The notes under the pieces are model-generated. The model made no database searches, had not been told where the DNA came from, and worked only from the letters and a program-made list of their open reading frames with translations. Below, piece after piece: positions 1 through 33,874 of a DNA stretch of 33,874 nucleotides. The first letter of the stretch is position 1. Every line of letters starts with the position of its first letter. This stretch comes from Halioglobus sp. (lineage in GTDB: Bacteria > Pseudomonadota > Gammaproteobacteria > Pseudomonadales > Halieaceae). Location: contig JAGRIK010000252.1 in NCBI GenBank assembly GCA_020443325.1, positions 1-33,874 of the forward strand. The letters run 5' to 3'. A program made the position numbers and the translations under genes.

Positions 1-92
1 GATGCAGGGCTCGTACCCCAGTAGGCGTTTCACAAAGCGAATTACGTGGAGCGACTGAAACGCCTACTGGGGTGCGAGCCCGTCGACCACGA
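1..92 (+). repeat. Hairpin repeat element, truncated copy III (A hairpin only)
   Basis: Left arm 7-32 (begins GGGCTCGTACCCC, ends GTTTCA) pairs with right arm 56-81 (TGAAAC...GCGAGCCC), a 26-bp stem with one G-T type mismatch. The loop is the 23 nt at 33-55 (CAAAGCGAATT...GAGCGAC). The right arm is followed by GTCGACCACGA (82-92), which is also found beside copy I. The preceding GATGCA (1-6) is the end of the spacer block conserved in copies I and II, so the B hairpin should lie just outside the window on the left. The unit is in the same orientation as copy II at the right end. No gene is visible in 93-186. Confidence 0.9.
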
Positions 93-4989: not shown

Positions 4990-6387
4990 ATGGCACTACA
5001 CGACAAAGATTCCATTCGCCACAAGATGGACGACGATATCTACGCCTCGGCCGACCTCAGCGTATCCATACCCAAATACAAGTTTCCCGAGATGCAGCTG
5101 GACCCCCGGCACGCTTACACAGTGGTACACGATGAGCTGATGCTGGACGGCAATGCGCGCCAGAATCTGGCCACATTCTGCCAGACCTGGGAGGAACCGG
5201 AAGTCCATCGACTGATGGACGAGTGCATAGACAAAAACATAGTCGACAAGGACGAGTATCCACAGATAGCTGAAATTGAATCTCGCTGCGTGCATATGCT
5301 GTCGGATCTGTGGAACTCACCGGCTGGCGACAACGCGGTTGGGTGCTCAACCACGGGCTCCAGCGAGGCCGCCATGCTGGGCGGCATGGCCATGAAGCGT
5401 CGCTGGGATGCAAGGCGTAAAGCCGAGGGCAAGCCCATCGACAAACCCAACCTGATTACCGGCCCCGTGCAAATCTGCTGGCACAAGTTCACCCGCTACT
5501 GGGACATTGAGCACCGAGAGATTCCAATGGACGAGGGGCGGATGCTGATGACGCCCGAAGAGGTACTGGCGCGCTGCGATGAGAACACGATTGGTGTCGT
5601 TCCCACGCTGGGCGTAACCTTTACCGGGGAGTATGAGCCGGTGGAGGCTGTGTCCCAGGCGCTGGACCGATACCAGCGAGAGACCGGGCTGGACATACCC
5701 ATTCATGTCGACGGTGCCAGTGGTGGATTTCTCGCGCCGTTTTGCTCCCCGGAGCTGGTATGGGATTTCCGGCTACCGCGTGTAAAGTCCATTAACGCTT
5801 CGGGGCACAAGTTCGGCCTGGCCCCCCTGGGAGTCGGCTGGATAATCTGGCGCGAGGCGAAGGATCTGCCAGAGGAACTGATTTTCTGGGTCAATTACCT
5901 GGGGGGCAACATGCGCGACATCGCGCTGAATTTTTCCCGACCGGGCGGTCAGGTCGCCTGCCAGTACTATAATTTCCTGCGCCTCGGGACCGAGGGGTAC
6001 CGTAAAATACACACGGCCTGTTACAACACCGCACAGTTCCTGGCCGGTGAGATCGCGAAGCTCGGCCCGTTTGAAATTATCTACGACGGCGCCATGGACA
6101 GCGGCATCCCCTCGCTGTGCTGGAGAGTCAAGCCGGGGGTAGACCCCGGTTACAGCCTGTACGACCTCGCGAACCGGCTGCGCGCACGTGGCTGGCAGGT
6201 GCCCGCCTACTCACTGCCGGCCAACTGCGAATCGATTCCGATCCAGCGCATCCTGGTGCGTCATGGTGTGAGTCGCGATCTCGCCACGCTGTTACTGGAC
6301 GACATTAAAAATGCGCTGGAGTTTTTCGAGAAGCACCCCGTGCACGCGAAACTGGTTGCTGCCGAGGCGTCGGGATTTCACCACTGA
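4990..6387 (+). CDS. gadB: Glutamate decarboxylase (PLP-dependent)
   Basis: The protein is 465 aa, close to E. coli GadA/GadB. It converts L-glutamate to GABA and CO2, consuming a proton. Family blocks include [20 protein letters not shown] (residues ~49-68), a [22 protein letters not shown]-type segment, HVDGASGGF, and [10 protein letters not shown] with the PLP-binding Lys at residue 274. The protein ends in G-F-H-H. In E. coli GadB a His near the C-terminus closes the active site at neutral pH, and these His residues could do the same (inference). The ATG at 4990 has AGGA nine bases upstream; the longer reading frame from 4909 lacks support. No glutamate/GABA antiporter (GadC) or GABA-shunt gene is adjacent. 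Confidence 0.95.
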
Positions 6388-8427: not shown

Positions 8428-8823
8428 ATGAACACCGTTATCGGCAGCTTACTCATTCTTTGCATCCTTCCTATCATCTGTGCCTGGATCGCGGCCTATT
8501 TCCGCCAGCAGCAACTGGGCAGCATCGACAACAAGGAGCCACGCATCCAGTCACAGCAACTGTCAGGTGCCGGGGCGCGCGCGGTAGCCGCCCAGGGGAA
8601 TAGCTGGGAAGCACTGGCGATATTCAGCGCCGCTGCACTGGCGCTGTTCATTGCAGGAGTCGACCTGCAAAGCGTCTCCACGCTGGCAATGGTGTTCGTC
8701 GCCCTGCGCATCGCCTATATCCCGGCGTATATCGCTAACGTCGATATCCTGCGATCACTGATCTTTATCGGCGGCTTCGGAATCTGCCTGTACTTTTTCT
8801 ATCTGGCGCTCAGCGCCAATTAG
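8428..8823 (+). CDS. MAPEG family membrane protein
   Basis: The protein is 131 aa with about four membrane helices: residues 3-25, about 60-78 (ALAIFSAAALALFIAGV), about 84-105 and about 108-128. The conserved core A-V-A-A-Q-G-N-S-W-E-A-L-A-I-F precedes the second helix, as in bacterial MAPEG proteins (PF01124; glutathione-linked or eicosanoid-like membrane enzymes). Later, LRIAYIPAYIANVDILRSL matches the conserved R-x-x-Y...Y-x-x-x...R-S pattern. GGAG lies about ten bases before the ATG. It is second in a unit with the alpha/beta hydrolase. The actual reaction is unknown; many bacterial members are uncharacterised. Confidence 0.88.
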   Translation: MNTVIGSLLILCILPIICAWIAAYFRQQQLGSIDNKEPRIQSQQLSGAGARAVAAQGNSWEALAIFSAAALALFIAGVDLQSVSTLAMVFVALRIAYIPAYIANVDILRSLIFIGGFGICLYFFYLALSAN

Positions 8824-8870
8824 CAGCGTGTTGGACACTCTCTTCTAATTTCTAGCGCTGCCAGGGTCTA

Positions 8871-9144
8871 TCGTGGTCGACGGGCTCGTACCCCAGCAGG
8901 CGTTTCAGTCGCTCCACGTGATTCGCTTGGTGAAACGCCTGCTGGGGCACGAGCCCTGCATCCCAATGCTACGACACGAGGTGTGACGGACGTTAGACTC
9001 TGAAAAGCCGGGGTACAAAGCTTTTGTGATCTAGCCGAATGGTATGGTCTGAGGTTACGGATAGAAAAAGTGTTTCTCACCAAGCGAATTACGTTGGTCC
9101 GGCACCCCGGGAGCGACTGAGAAACACTTTTTCTATCCGTAACC
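8871..9144 (-). repeat. Hairpin repeat element, complete copy I
   Basis: Two long hairpins fill most of this unit. The A hairpin has arms 8882-8907 and 8931-8956 (26 bp) and loop 8908-8930. The B hairpin has arms 9053-9079 and 9118-9144 (27 bp, perfect) and loop 9080-9117. The A loop on the plus strand reads GTCGCTCC...TTCGCTTGG, and the B loop begins CCAAGCGAATTACGT and ends GGAGCGAC, so the loops are reverse complements. The B loop has a 15-nt insertion at about 9095-9109. The spacer 8957-9052 contains a 41-nt block (8957-8997) differing by one base from 33786-33826. The outer flank TCGTGGTCGAC (8871-8881) matches the right flank of copy III in reverse. Orientation is B to A on the minus strand. 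The 425-base gap 8824-9249 holds only this unit and the terminator. Confidence 0.93.
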
Positions 9145-9168
9145 GTCGGGCAAGACTATTCCCTGGGA

Positions 9169-9215
9169 CGAGGGCAAAAAACCGCATCTGTCATCCCCGT
9201 TTTTTGCCTACCTCG
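9169..9215 (-). terminator. Hairpin terminator for the Abhydrolase_10 gene (possible)
   Basis: GGCAAAAAAC (9173-9182) pairs with GTTTTTTGCC (9199-9208), with flanking CGAGG/CCTCG extending the stem across a bulge. It lies 35-80 bases beyond the stop codon of the minus-strand gene at 9250, and the minus strand ends in TTTTTTGCC. Its loop is unrelated to the A/B hairpins of the repeat. Confidence 0.5.
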
Positions 9216-9249
9216 AACTCGTTTGAGACTTCTTCAACACGCTGCCAGA

Positions 9250-10839
9250 TCAGGACCCAGGGACACCGACAACATCTGAAGTCCGCGCCCGCGCCTTGAT
9301 CAGCTCTGCATCCCTGGGCACCAGAAACCCCGCCGCGGCGGCCGCATCGGTGGCGTTGTCAATAGCATCGATATACGCCTGCCTGGTCGGGTAAAGCATC
9401 GCCAGTGTCGCTTCATCAAACAATTCGGTAGTACCGAACAACCCACAAAAAGCGGCGTTTGCAGGCGGCTGCCCCTCGCCCGACAGTACCGCAACGGGCG
9501 CATCCACATAAGGCGTACGGACACCGCCCTGAACGTTGCCGAAGCGGTCGTACAGGAAGTCGGTTCCCTCGGGATTCAATGCCAACAACGGCGCTGAAGG
9601 GGCAGCTTCGCCGTTGCGCAGCCACTTGTCGATTGCGGCGACGGCGGCCTTGGCGACCCAGTGTCCCGGTCCATCATTCACCGGCAGCGGACAGGTGATA
9701 AAAGGCGGTCGGGCATCGTTGTTGGAGATCACATCGGCCACCGTGGGGTCGTCGCCCCGGTCAACCGGCCCCTTGATGGTCGTGTACACATCGGAGTGGG
9801 CGGAACCGGCCACCTCCCACAACCGGATAGTACCGGAGTCGGGCTGGCGCTGGGTGACAGAGTTCAAACGAAAAATATCGGTCTGCGTCTGCAGGGTGAG
9901 CACCGGCTCAGGGAGTCCCTCGCGGATGAATACGGGATCAGGCGTCCTGACCTCGACCTGCGGTAGTTGCGATAGCGCAGCACTGCCATTGCCCCGACTG
10001 TGAATAATAAAACCGTCAAACAAATCGATCGTCGGGTGTATGGCATTCACATAGGTCACGAGGCGGAACGCGGACTGCGACTCACCCACGGCAATCATAC
10101 GCTGCACCCTGAGACCCTCCAGCGGGTCCAGGCCCACCGGGTTGCGAACGGCCTGGGCTGCCTGGGAGAAAATGTCGTAGGAGAAACTGTCGCCGGGGTG
10201 CTGCAATGGACCATAGCGCTGGGGATCGATAACCTTCAGGGGCAAGTCGAATGCGCCACCACCCTCTACACCCGCCCTCTGTGCGGACACGCCCACCCAG
10301 GCGTAGCCCTCGCGCATCAGCTCTGTGTGCATCTGGGTCAGGTCTGGCGCGGCATCGACGCCACCGGAGACATTGAACCACTCCACTACGACCGTGCCGT
10401 TAAAATCGGCCTCGTTCTCGGGCCGCAGCACCACGATCCGGCTCACGTACTCGGCCGCATCTGCCGTCTCCACCTGCCAGTCACCCTCCGGGCGCAATTC
10501 ATCGGTGGCAATATAGGACATCGCCGATCCCGAAATAAAATACTCTGTCTCGCGGTATCCCACCTCCGCTTCATCGAACGAGACACCGGCATAAAATGGC
10601 GTACCCGGCACATAGCCCTGGGTTCTCAGGTCCACCTCGATCGGACCAAAATTTATCACGCAACAGTCCGCCGCTCCGCCGCCGGAGATCGGGCCCTCGA
10701 TCATCGGGTTCGCAGCCTGGGGTTTTTGGTCAGGCGGGTTACTGTCACTGGTATTGCTACAACCGGCGACAATCGAGAGCAATACCATCGCGGTAATGAC
10801 TGCCGGGAATGAGCGGGTACGGTGTTGTCTGGTTTCCAA
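9250..10839 (-). CDS. Abhydrolase_10-type lipoprotein (alpha/beta hydrolase domain)
   Basis: The protein is 529 aa. The N-terminus RTRSFPAVITAMVLLSIVAGC gives a lipobox with Cys27, then a short polar linker and a large alpha/beta-hydrolase domain. The nucleophile elbow is A-V-G-E-S-Q-S-A-F-R-L with Ser near residue 253. VVVEWFNVSGGVDAAPD and GYAWVGVSAQRAGVEGG are typical of the Abhydrolase_10 group (PF20091), which is poorly characterised. The start is TTG at 10839, supported by CCAGGAGAAAATCCCC directly upstream; no ATG before the signal peptide fits as well. The residue after the Cys is Ser, consistent with outer-membrane sorting. It probably has its own promoter, since the MFS gene upstream ends 115 bases before. 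The substrate is unknown. Confidence 0.85.
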   Translation of the reverse strand: METRQHRTRSFPAVITAMVLLSIVAGCSNTSDSNPPDQKPQAANPMIEGPISGGGAADCCVINFGPIEVDLRTQGYVPGTPFYAGVSFDEAEVGYRETEYFISGSAMSYIATDELRPEGDWQVETADAAEYVSRIVVLRPENEADFNGTVVVEWFNVSGGVDAAPDLTQMHTELMREGYAWVGVSAQRAGVEGGGAFDLPLKVIDPQRYGPLQHPGDSFSYDIFSQAAQAVRNPVGLDPLEGLRVQRMIAVGESQSAFRLVTYVNAIHPTIDLFDGFIIHSRGNGSAALSQLPQVEVRTPDPVFIREGLPEPVLTLQTQTDIFRLNSVTQRQPDSGTIRLWEVAGSAHSDVYTTIKGPVDRGDDPTVADVISNNDARPPFITCPLPVNDGPGHWVAKAAVAAIDKWLRNGEAAPSAPLLALNPEGTDFLYDRFGNVQGGVRTPYVDAPVAVLSGEGQPPANAAFCGLFGTTELFDEATLAMLYPTRQAYIDAIDNATDAAAAAGFLVPRDAELIKARARTSDVVGVPGS

Positions 10840-13232: not shown

Positions 13233-16046
13233 TCAGTCGAGCGAACCCTCAATAATCCAGCCCGCCCACCATGTATCGGCAGGGTCTGTGCCCGGTTTGA
13301 CCGCACCAATGAAATCGGTGTTGTCGAACACAAAGCCCGAGCCGTTGTCCACTGCAGGTATCCCGGGTGCCATCACATTAGCCGATGGCTCCATCAGCGC
13401 GTAGGCTGAATCTACCGTGACGGGGTCTTCCCCGGCGTTCGCTACAGCGTCCGCCGCGCGCTTGTCGTAATACCCGTCCAGGCATTCCCCGGGAACATTC
13501 ACCAGCGTGATATTCGAGGGCACAGTACTGTTGGTCAACACAGCGTCATCTATGCGGATACAGCCTGTATCAAAATCCCGGACTGCGGAATTGTAGATAG
13601 CGGTAGTGACAGCACCTCGCAATCGCATACCTGGCTGTTGACCGTTCTGGGACGCCGCGTTGTTGTTCACCGAACCACCGAGAACCAGGATATTCGCCAA
13701 CACAGCATCCGTCTCCGGTACGAAATCGGCATCGCTTGAATTGGCCTCTATACCACGTGGATCGTTACTGCCTGTGGGGGCGGATTTTGATTGGTTCTTG
13801 CGCACGATAGCGTACTGGATATTCCCCATGTAGCCCTCATCGTAATCGATGTCATCGTCGTCGTTGTTGGTCAACACCAGGTGTGTTGCATTGACCGTAC
13901 CGCCGAACCACTCGATGCCATCGTCGAGGTTACCGTGAACCTGGATATAATCGATTTCAGTACTGTAACCGACACCCTGCAGCGTCAAACCGTTGATCTC
14001 GTTATTCGGTCCGGCGATCTTTCCGCCCTCGGCGATGCGCACATAGCGCAGTGCACCGCTGTCATCTGCAGGGTCATTGCCGCCATAGTTGCCGACGATC
14101 GTGCCACCTTCGCCCTTGATATTACAGACAGTGCCCGTGCCAAAGCATGCGCCAGTTCCACCCTGTCCGTATTGCGGCGCGAAACCCTGGATAATAACGC
14201 CGCCCCACTCACCTTCGCCATCGAGATTGTCATCGCTCAGGCTACTGAATGTGATCGGGGCCGCTGGCGAACCCACCGCATGGATCTTGGAACCCCGCGT
14301 CACGATCAACGAGCCCGTATCGAACGCGCGAACATTCACGCCCGGGCGAATAGTCAGCGTAACCCCTGCATTGCGCACCGCCTGTACATCGGCATCGTTG
14401 GCAACCGTTACGTTACCAGCACCGACGATCACCTCGCCGTCCAGACGCCACTCTACCCCGGCGACCATGGTGTAATCCTGGTCAATTTGGCCTGTGATCG
14501 TACAATTCGTGGCATCGTCACTGCAGCTTACAAATGAAGCGGGCTGTACAGGTTCCATCTCGGTAACCGTACCGGGCAATGTCCAACCCTCCCACCAGGC
14601 ATCGCCGTCGGGATCAACTGCGCCGATGAAATCCGTCTGGTCAAAGACGAAACCGGAGCCGTTGTTCACCGCATTGATCACCGGCGCCACGTCCAGTCGC
14701 GCCTGGCTTTCCTGAATTGCCATCGTCTCGCTGTAGGTCAGTACCAGTGCGTCCACATTGTCTTCCACATCGGGTGACTGCTTCTGGAACAAACCGCCTT
14801 CACAATCACCGAGAAAGTTCTCCATTGCGATCACACTGGGTACGATCATGGAACCATCACCATTCACATCAGCGTTGTCGATGCGCACGCAGCCAATATT
14901 GAAATTGCTGACGGAGCTGTTGAAGATCGCGGTTTTCACAGCGCCACGCAGACGCATGCCGGGCTGTTCGCCCTGTGAAGACGACGCGTTATTGTTCACT
15001 TTTCCGCCTATTATAGTGAGGTTGGCCAGCACCGCTTCCGTTTGCGGCACGTAATCGGCATCGCTGGAATTGGCTTCTACCCCACGCGGGTCGTTCGAAC
15101 CCTGCGGTGCGTCATTGATGTTGTTTTTTTCGATGAGCGCGTACTGGATGTTCCCCATATAGCCTTCATCGTAATCGATATCGTCGTCATCGTTGCTGGT
15201 GAGTACCGCGTAACGCAGGTTCACGGTACCACCGAACCACTCAATACCGTCATCGAGATTATTGTGCACCTGGATATACTCCAGCATTGTTCCGTAACCG
15301 ACGCCCTGCAGGGTCAAGCCATTAATTTCATTGTTGGGGCCAGCCACAAGCCCGCCCTCTGCGATGCGCACGTAACGCAGCGAGCCGGAGTTGTCCGCGG
15401 GATCGTTACCGCCATAGACAGACACGTCGGTACCACCCTCACCTTCGACGTTACAGACGTCGCCGGCGCCATAACATGGACCGGTATCTCCCTGTCCATA
15501 CTGGGGGGCAAAGCCCTGGATGATCACGCCGCCCCATTCGCCGAGTCCGTCGTAGTTATCGTCGAGGCTGCTGAATGTAATCGGTTGTGACGCGCTGCCC
15601 TCTGCCATCAGCATGGAGCCACGCGTAACCAACAGCGTACCGGTATCAAACGCACGTATATCGGTGCCAGGCTCAATCGTTAGGGTCACACCCGCGTCGC
15701 GTATCGCCTGTACATCACTGGCATTGCTAACCGTACGATTTCCATCACCCACTGTTACCGTCCCGTCGAGCCGCCACTGCACGTCGCTCGTCAGGGTATA
15801 GTCCTCATCCACCATACCAGTCAGGGTGCCGACCGAGCAGTCCGTATTGAAATCGATAAAGTCTGCCACGACGACCTGGTTACAGTCTCCACCGCTGCTG
15901 GACCCGCCGGAACTGCTGGAGCCCGAACTGCTTGAACTGCCGAATTCATTGGTGATATTGACATTGTCACCATCACTGCCACCGCAACCGACCATGCCGG
16001 AAATAAGCGGCACCAGCAGCGCTGTATACAACTTTTGTTTAACCAT
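13233..16046 (-). CDS. Internally duplicated beta-helix-like surface lipoprotein
   Basis: The protein is about 937 aa. The lipobox MVKQKLYTALLVPLISGMVGC has Cys21, followed by G-G. A Ser/Gly linker (FGSSSSSGSSSSGGSSSGG) leads to two copies of a ~440-residue domain. The first begins near TGMVDEDYTLTSDVQWRLDG and the second near TGQIDQDYTMVAGVEWRLDG. Each then has GVTLTI.PG..., AFDTG.L.VTRGS, GEWGGVIIQGFAPQYGQG, YGGNDPAD.SG.LRYVRIAEGG, a DDGIEWFGGTVN and NDDDDIDYDEGYMGNIQYA segment, and ends in DFIGAV.P...WW.GW. This resembles a beta-helix family common in Bacteroidetes and marine proteobacteria, often beside TonB receptors. The Asp runs suggest calcium binding. The ATG at 16046 has AGGA eight bases upstream. 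It is 105 bases downstream of the TonB receptor gene and probably its partner. The ligand is unknown. Confidence 0.85.
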   Translation of the reverse strand: MVKQKLYTALLVPLISGMVGCGGSDGDNVNITNEFGSSSSSGSSSSGGSSSGGDCNQVVVADFIDFNTDCSVGTLTGMVDEDYTLTSDVQWRLDGTVTVGDGNRTVSNASDVQAIRDAGVTLTIEPGTDIRAFDTGTLLVTRGSMLMAEGSASQPITFSSLDDNYDGLGEWGGVIIQGFAPQYGQGDTGPCYGAGDVCNVEGEGGTDVSVYGGNDPADNSGSLRYVRIAEGGLVAGPNNEINGLTLQGVGYGTMLEYIQVHNNLDDGIEWFGGTVNLRYAVLTSNDDDDIDYDEGYMGNIQYALIEKNNINDAPQGSNDPRGVEANSSDADYVPQTEAVLANLTIIGGKVNNNASSSQGEQPGMRLRGAVKTAIFNSSVSNFNIGCVRIDNADVNGDGSMIVPSVIAMENFLGDCEGGLFQKQSPDVEDNVDALVLTYSETMAIQESQARLDVAPVINAVNNGSGFVFDQTDFIGAVDPDGDAWWEGWTLPGTVTEMEPVQPASFVSCSDDATNCTITGQIDQDYTMVAGVEWRLDGEVIVGAGNVTVANDADVQAVRNAGVTLTIRPGVNVRAFDTGSLIVTRGSKIHAVGSPAAPITFSSLSDDNLDGEGEWGGVIIQGFAPQYGQGGTGACFGTGTVCNIKGEGGTIVGNYGGNDPADDSGALRYVRIAEGGKIAGPNNEINGLTLQGVGYSTEIDYIQVHGNLDDGIEWFGGTVNATHLVLTNNDDDDIDYDEGYMGNIQYAIVRKNQSKSAPTGSNDPRGIEANSSDADFVPETDAVLANILVLGGSVNNNAASQNGQQPGMRLRGAVTTAIYNSAVRDFDTGCIRIDDAVLTNSTVPSNITLVNVPGECLDGYYDKRAADAVANAGEDPVTVDSAYALMEPSANVMAPGIPAVDNGSGFVFDNTDFIGAVKPGTDPADTWWAGWIIEGSLD

Positions 16047-16150
16047 TGTTTGCTTCCTGATCACGTTAAATTGGAGTGCAGATGAACTGCACTTTCTTCG
16101 CTTAGCTAAATAATTCATTTCATCTCCCCGTGCCGCGTTGTAAACAATTA

Positions 16151-33488: not shown

Positions 33489-33651
33489 AGTGGGGCATGA
33501 ATCGCTAATTGGGTTGTCAGTTTCGATTTCGCTTACTTAGCCCTCGATACGGCGCGTAGAAATAGTCTCTAGCGAGAGCGAGAGTTGGGGGGAAACTAAC
33601 CGAGATGAAAACTGAGGTACTTCCGGCGCCTGGGAAATGGCGTTGTAGCGC

Positions 33652-33874
33652 GGTTGCGGATGGAGAATGTGTTTCTCAGTCGCTCCACGTAATTCGCTTG
33701 GTGAGAAACACATTCTCCATCCGCAACCTCAGTGCACACCATACGATTAGATCACTAAAAAATCTTCCATTCATACAATTCACAATCTAACGTCCGTCAC
33801 ACCTCGTGCCGTAGCATTGGGATGCAGGGCTCGTACCCCAGTAGGCGTTTCACCAAGCGAATCACGTGGAGCGA
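33652..33874 (+). repeat. Hairpin repeat element, copy II cut by the window end
   Basis: The B hairpin has arms 33652-33678 and 33702-33728 (27 bp, perfect) and loop 33679-33701 (GTCGCTCC...TTCGCTTGG). The spacer is 33729-33826, ending in the 41-nt conserved block 33786-33826. The A hairpin's left arm is 33827-33852 and its loop 33853-33874 lacks only the last base; the right arm is outside the window. Compared with copy I, the B left arm differs at four positions and the right arm carries the matching change at each. The 163 bases between the SDR stop and this unit (33489-33651) contain no gene or clear terminator. Confidence 0.93.

Follow-up and report, generated by a model that had tools for sequence, protein, structure and literature searches.

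A Repeated Two-Hairpin Element With a Constant Bipartite Loop on Stems of Almost Free Sequence in Halioglobus and Its Relatives

REP-type repeats are known by the tags at the foot of their short hairpins and by their RAYT transposases, and mitochondrial double-hairpin elements are paired hairpins that spread. We know of no constant inverted loops in the latter. According to the accessible part of their description (PMC3116915), REPINs are built as inverted hairpin doublets. GTAG-tagged REPs have mostly very short loops, as the accessible part of another study states (PMC3733652), and certain loop positions of TnpA-REP group 3 substrates matter in recognizing the folded single strand, according to an excerpt of a third (PMC8266576). 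Here we describe a family of long hairpins found in a draft genome of Halioglobus sp. (G000), in some of its relatives and in a few Lysobacter. The window, the whole stretch of DNA that was analyzed, comprises 33,874 nucleotides of that draft genome (contig JAGRIK010000252.1). An earlier note on it had described a repeat unit at 8871-9144 with two long hairpins whose loops are complementary to each other, and had offered a loop-loop contact as well as a MITE-like element, a structured RNA or a recombination site as interpretations. Our analysis supports a repeated, structured, mobile two-hairpin unit and speaks against the loop-loop contact as its working feature.

The window copy is situated between two ORFs, and further copies lie at both contig ends (window 1-92 and 33651-33874, the latter cut off). 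The features are as follows.

8825..9247, no strand: whole inserted unit of 423 bp, with no counterpart at the orthologous site of the congener G012
8821..8833, + strand: left terminal inverted repeat, TAGCAGCGTGTTG, overlapping the stop codon of ORF 8428-8823
8882..8956, + strand: hairpin A, stem of 26 bp and loop of 23 nt
8908..8930, + strand: A loop, short form, GTCGCTCCACG-TGA-TTCGCTTGG
8957..9052, no strand: spacer separating hairpins A and B, mean pairwise identity 0.83 (12 units)
9053..9144, - strand: hairpin B, stem of 27 bp and loop of 38 nt
9080..9117, - strand: B loop, long form of the A-loop motif in opposite orientation
9095..9109, - strand: insert of 15 nt in the B loop, reading CGGGGTGCCGGACCA on the - strand and separating TCGCTCC from ACG
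9235..9247, - strand: right terminal inverted repeat, TGGCAGCGTGTTG read on the - strand
7..81, - strand: A hairpin of a second copy, left contig end
33652..33728, + strand: B hairpin of a third copy, near the right contig end
33827..33874, - strand: A hairpin of the third copy, truncated in the loop by the contig end

The arms of hairpin A (8882-8907 and 8931-8956) are 96% complementary, and those of hairpin B (9053-9079 and 9118-9144) form a perfect stem of 27 bp. The fold energy of 8850-9160 was far beyond that of dinucleotide-shuffled sequences (z = -11.55), none of 100 shuffles being as good. Two hairpins with stems of 26 and 27 bp are present where they had first been noticed. The loops had been called inverted copies of each other apart from an insertion and, in some A loops, one or two base differences, and this holds: the 23-nt loop recurs in opposite orientation in B with the 15-nt insert (9095-9109) and a single altered center base. 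The span 8871-9144 proved to be a real repeat and merely the inner part of the 423-bp unit 8825-9247. Alignment of 25 G000 copies showed that homology extends well past 8871-9144, and this alignment together with a search for the terminal inverted repeat (TIR) showed that G000 units end in inverted repeats resembling CTAGCAGCGTGTTGAAAAA.

Three further observations concern the window and its assembly. Both contig ends fall within element copies, and 29 single G000 hairpins are close to the end of a contig or locus; the assembly seems to break at element copies. ORF 8428-8823 is probably the sole MAPEG match of the Pfam scan. The long ORF 13233-16118 (- strand) contains direct repeats at 13541-15207 (226 and 69 nt, at a distance of 1329 bp) and perhaps encodes an internally duplicated protein.

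Counting the copies, as the earlier note had proposed, gave 106 loop motifs in G000 at up to three mismatches, and none for a reversed control pattern; used as a query against the G000 assembly, the 274-bp unit returned 134 matched pieces. The window flanks are contiguous in G012, where positions 51903/51904 of contig C16 adjoin at the point at which the window carries 8825-9247 (423 extra bases), and the hairpin pair of G000 therefore travels in a MITE-like unit. The flanks matched to the window unit are separated by 91 bp in Halioglobus japonicus BC5_1 (G014). The G012 site is the one clean empty site; a second G000 unit that was tried (L022) matched on a single flank. An insertion comparison in Pseudohaliea rubra gave 431 vs 81 bp for the compared stretch. 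CTAG-like ends flank the G000 unit on both sides, and the empty site lacks a clean target duplication. The empty G012 site, the 423-bp unit with terminal inverted repeats and the multiplied copies support the suggestion of a MITE-like mobile element.

Sixty TIR sites were found in G000, many of which terminate at contig ends. The additional TIR sites that were inspected lay at contig ends, in a short hairpin-less unit on contig C293, or in a match on C294, which sits inside coding sequence and was read as chance; inspection of ends and hairpins revealed no transposase in them. The C293 unit (L269, ~6216-6304) is very short, has no hairpins and is made up of two end repeats plus outer parts. 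Two single TIR matches were also obtained in G011. A plasmid search with the TIR query returned 43 records (37 Sinorhizobium, 1 Halioglobus), with E 0.9 among the matches listed.

These data bear on an alternative to which we give only a slim chance, namely that the hairpin pair is a passenger and the TIR-bounded G000 unit alone is mobile. Many G000 copies do lie within TIR units, and the C293 unit has the TIRs without hairpins. Against this, G012 and G014 carry hairpins with the same loop yet lack any match to the G000 TIR, and no G000-type TIR was seen flanking the hairpins in the loci examined of P. rubra, G052 and Lysobacter; the outer ends of P. rubra units are inverted, as judged by eye. 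The loops are also better kept in G000 than the second end repeat, which showed 0-4 mismatches in 18 positions where found.

The hallmark of the family is a constant, bipartite loop signature, TCGCTCC-ACG-NNN-TTCGCTT-N-G, carried on stems whose sequence is nearly unconstrained. In 179 motifs that had 45 bp of context on either side, taken without any stem filter, the paired fraction of stem positions was 0.918; sliding one arm lowered it to 0.27-0.36. A stem was present at 169 of these motifs; the other ten are inserted-loop, chimeric, shifted or weak forms and include both H. pacificus copies. At the H. pacificus locus L130, two loop motifs in the same orientation lie 272 bp apart on weak stems. 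Pairing was specific to each copy: in seven groups it reached 0.885-0.975, vs means of 0.54-0.82 when arms were swapped between copies, and none of 300 swaps equaled it in any group, the hairpins having been chosen at a stem score of at least 10, a choice that favors pairing. Loop constancy was assessed in G000 units chosen by one end repeat, so that selection was independent of the loop. There were no mismatches at 560 fixed loop positions in 14 such units (16 rows minus L208 and L212, which repeat L029 and L028), and a loop pair was missing at three TIR starts, the two C293 ends and C294. By comparison, pairwise identity in 12 of the 14 units, with the near-duplicates L003 and L028 left out, was 0.83 in the spacer and 0.78-0.81 in the outer parts. 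The loop center is TGA or TAA in 46 of 46 G000 loops, ATA in 26 of 27 G052 loops and mixed in G012. Two fixed half-sites around a variable center suggest recognition by a protein. The loop was also considered as coding sequence for a short peptide and rejected as such, its variation, judged by eye, not being at third codon positions. A different insert of ~14-20 nt, between CAG and TCGCTCC, was seen in three P. rubra loci (L329, L232, L239) and in L340 of G138.

The P. rubra loops that were listed fall mostly into two versions, ACG-ATA-TT (I) and CCG-ATA-CA (II). In all 16 inverted (+-) pairs examined, both hairpins carry the same version (9 I/I and 7 II/II), an outcome that random pairing would yield about once in 11,440. 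One neighbor couple in -+ order (L240) mixes the versions. The contact between the A and B loops, as a kissing complex or pseudoknot in the earlier note or as strand exchange, could be the function of the element, and both the inverted loop copies and the agreement of loop versions within all 16 inverted pairs examined in P. rubra would fit such pairing. We nevertheless consider it very improbable: the A and B centers are equal in only 4 of 14 G000 units, seven of these 14 units have the 15-nt insert in just one of their loops, and 17 of 20 Lysobacter elements are lone or in same-orientation clusters. Some hairpins are chimeric (A arm, loop, B arm), and these are not proof of recombination in the loop because a deletion between the short repeats shared by the inner stems suffices to produce them.

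Whether A and B always occur as a pair, as the earlier note had wondered, depends on the lineage. Among 99 Halieaceae elements with full context, 68 are inverted pairs, six are other clusters and 25 are lone hairpins; the 20 Lysobacter elements with full context comprise three inverted pairs, five same-orientation clusters and 12 lone hairpins (31 singles near an end were excluded from these counts). The inverted-pair arrangement thus describes most Halieaceae elements and fails for most of those in Lysobacter. The median spacing of the hairpins is 166-173 bp in G000, G012 (JAUICG), G014, G052 (JARFQU) and G051 (JAIBDN), and 122 bp in P. rubra DSM 19751 (G137).

The family is patchily distributed. 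At up to three mismatches in the loop motif, 3 of 18 genomes of the genus and 9 of 140 genomes of the bacterial family are carriers, G000 included in both. A looser loop pattern raised the latter to 11 of 140 by adding G022, with a single one-mismatch match that we attribute to chance, and G138, whose sole copy has an insert in its loop. P. rubra has 72 loop motifs. A scan of named genomes returned at least 63 stretches, with P. rubra, Halioglobus species, MAGs and four Lysobacter (L. concretionis, L. antarcticus, L. ruishenii and Lysobacter A03) among the matches listed. In a sample of 369 genomes of the class, four single two-mismatch matches were found besides G000; the reversed control matched in three genomes, and the four matches were read as chance. 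IMG/VR held no exact match for two patterns, the loop query found a single weak match among plasmids, and the 11 matches to phages were weak (E 2-8 among those listed), none spanning 80% of the query.

More gene 3' ends (137) than 5' ends (72) face the elements, as counted with a simple ORF script for neighbors within 1200 bp and excluding ORFs that overlap a hairpin. With a script of the same kind, which may over-call in G+C-rich DNA, 29 of 65 elements in named genomes lay between called ORFs, 29 inside one and seven at an edge; of 20 hairpins in ORFs of at least 200 aa, 15 were in the first or last quarter and five in the middle (L092, L124, L154). The excess of facing 3' ends would fit RNA elements, in which hairpins transcribed close to gene ends influence mRNA stability or use the loop to bind a protein or a small RNA, an inverted pair yielding one sense loop on either transcribed strand; structure kept through compensatory change would fit them as well. 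This reading is, in our judgment, distinctly unlikely. The loops occur in both orientations, which points to DNA. Rfam 15 gave no match at gathering score in the window, its four weaker matches being three microRNA families and part of a group II intron (E 0.17-3.6). A scan of 8700-9400 limited to loops of 3-8 nt detected no intrinsic terminator, and a T run follows neither stem.

Six loci are common to two species. The flanks of five shared G000 loci are 79.5-86.4% identical, and the sixth (L115/L096) was judged through a neighboring protein that is 96% identical; one of the shared loci (L218/L038) could be aligned on one side, with one comparable loop. Across these loci there was a single mismatch in 200 fixed loop positions, while the center differed in 7 of 10 loops and both arms of the stems had changed together. 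At one locus (L199:1526-1609 vs L060:1472-1555) the stem is almost wholly different between the two species and the loop orientation is flipped, and at another (L210/L039) the 15-nt loop insert is present in one species and missing in the other. Loop constancy at these old shared loci is stronger than predicted for a purely selfish repeat. Old copies at shared loci keep their loops, and the sites would therefore still be used, recopied, or valuable to the host.

This conservation raises the alternative that the elements are DNA sites adopted by the host, with cruciform hairpins whose loop is a standing site of a host nucleoid, replication or repair protein and whose mobility is past only. It is in keeping with the loops, which remain constant at loci that species share although the flanks and stems there do not, with the presence in G000 of four of the eight G012 elements and with the genome-typical loop centers, though G012 is mixed. 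The patchy presence of the family (9 of 140 family and 3 of 18 genus genomes), its multiplication as TIR units in G000 only and the empty site in G012 fit it poorly, and overall we regard it as unlikely.

A search for a partner protein did not point to a RAYT. The RAYT-type family PF01797 (Y1_Tnp) was matched in 33 of 140 family genomes, several of them without the loop motif; of the carriers, G000, G014, G052 and G061 had a match, and G012 and P. rubra (both 98% complete), G136, G119 and G051 had none. The survey does not fit a RAYT as mover, given the two 98%-complete carriers without a match. An adjacent transposase was likewise rejected: clustering of ORFs and Pfam scans of the neighbors revealed ordinary families, with no transposase or recombinase among the families listed for 182 of 219 neighbor proteins and for six window proteins (25 of 97, 52, 58 and 44 families in the four scans). 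No attC core boxes were noticed by eye. None of the open-access papers searched contained any of five stretches of the loop sequence, and no earlier description of the family was found among the matches listed; subscription papers might hold one.

Taken together, the findings point to a mobile or domesticated repeat with a putative partner protein, and we favor, with somewhat better than even confidence, a non-autonomous REPIN- or MITE-like repeat that has its tag in the loop, where the putative protein reads it. The fixed blocks around a free center, the match of loop versions within pairs and the constancy of loops after insertion suggest that a protein recognizes the loop in folded DNA. The unit of identity would be a long hairpin presenting a constant bipartite loop, TCGCTCC-ACG / variable center / TTCGCTT-N-G; in Halieaceae, two such hairpins, usually inverted and ~170 bp apart (~120 in P. 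rubra), appear to spread jointly. If the loop is read by a trans-acting protein, one that probably acts specifically on folded or cruciform DNA, recognition would for that reason hold the loop constant, and the stem would merely be required to pair. The stem may then drift by compensatory change, through either selection or template-switch repair of quasi-palindromes. In G000, the pair is part of a 423-bp unit that has terminal repeats of its own and has multiplied. Counting against this reading are the lack of a transposase or recombinase among the families listed, the lack of a clear target duplication, the strong loop constancy at old shared loci, the single clean empty site, the lone hairpins (25 of 99 elements in Halieaceae and 12 of 20 in Lysobacter), the mixed -+ couple of P. 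rubra and the 29 of 65 elements that fall inside called ORFs. More tentatively, and with rather less than even confidence, we propose a system for recombination or of nucleoprotein type that has no relation to RAYT/HUH transposases. It would read a bipartite motif of ~20 nt solely when a hairpin, whatever its sequence, displays the motif at its tip; the loop versions, whether specific to a host genome or co-resident as I and II are in P. rubra, would represent separate specificities, and selection would keep the sites after insertion.

How, then, does the family compare with known systems? Like MITEs, the G000 unit is short (423 bp), ends in terminal inverted repeats, contains no gene of note and has an empty site; unlike in MITEs, the internal loop is better conserved than the terminal repeats, and no parent transposon was seen. 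A likeness to mitochondrial double-hairpin elements lies in the paired, spreading hairpins. The family consists of palindromic repeats in many copies (106 motifs in G000 and 72 in P. rubra), as REPs and REPINs do, and the accessible part of the REPIN description (PMC3116915) supplies further parallels with REPINs and BIMEs: many copies, inverted pairs, compensatory change, lone copies beside pairs and a choice of two folds, with each hairpin formed separately or the ends paired with each other. The earlier view that no REP, ERIC, attC or IS-end family is known with this plan must accordingly be narrowed, the doublet having its precedent in REPINs as that part presents them; what does set the family apart is loop conservation, stem length and the lack of a RAYT match. 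Relative to the same source, the hairpin loop is invariant here instead of a foot tag, the stems measure ~20-30 bp, and the carriers G012 and P. rubra have no Y1_Tnp match. A foot tag is rare in our hairpins: of 160, 21 have GTAG or GTGG no more than 8 nt from the foot, and two have CGTC. GTAG- and CGTC-tagged REPs and TIRtrons, as far as the accessible part of PMC3733652 describes them, resemble the family in combining stem-loops and a constant tag with variable stems. In the excerpt of PMC8266576, TnpA-REP group 3 substrates have significant loop positions, which parallels the constant loop here, but their loops are of 3-4 nt and accompanied by GTAG, in place of a bipartite loop of 23-38 nt. 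The family leads a life similar to that of REPs, yet keeps its identity in the loop, on long stems of free sequence, and it does so in nearly complete genomes that have no RAYT match. With P. rubra DSM 19751 and L. concretionis as named carriers, the missing protein is directly searchable, and the co-resident loop versions of P. rubra, unmixed in all 16 inverted pairs examined, offer a ready test of loop recognition.
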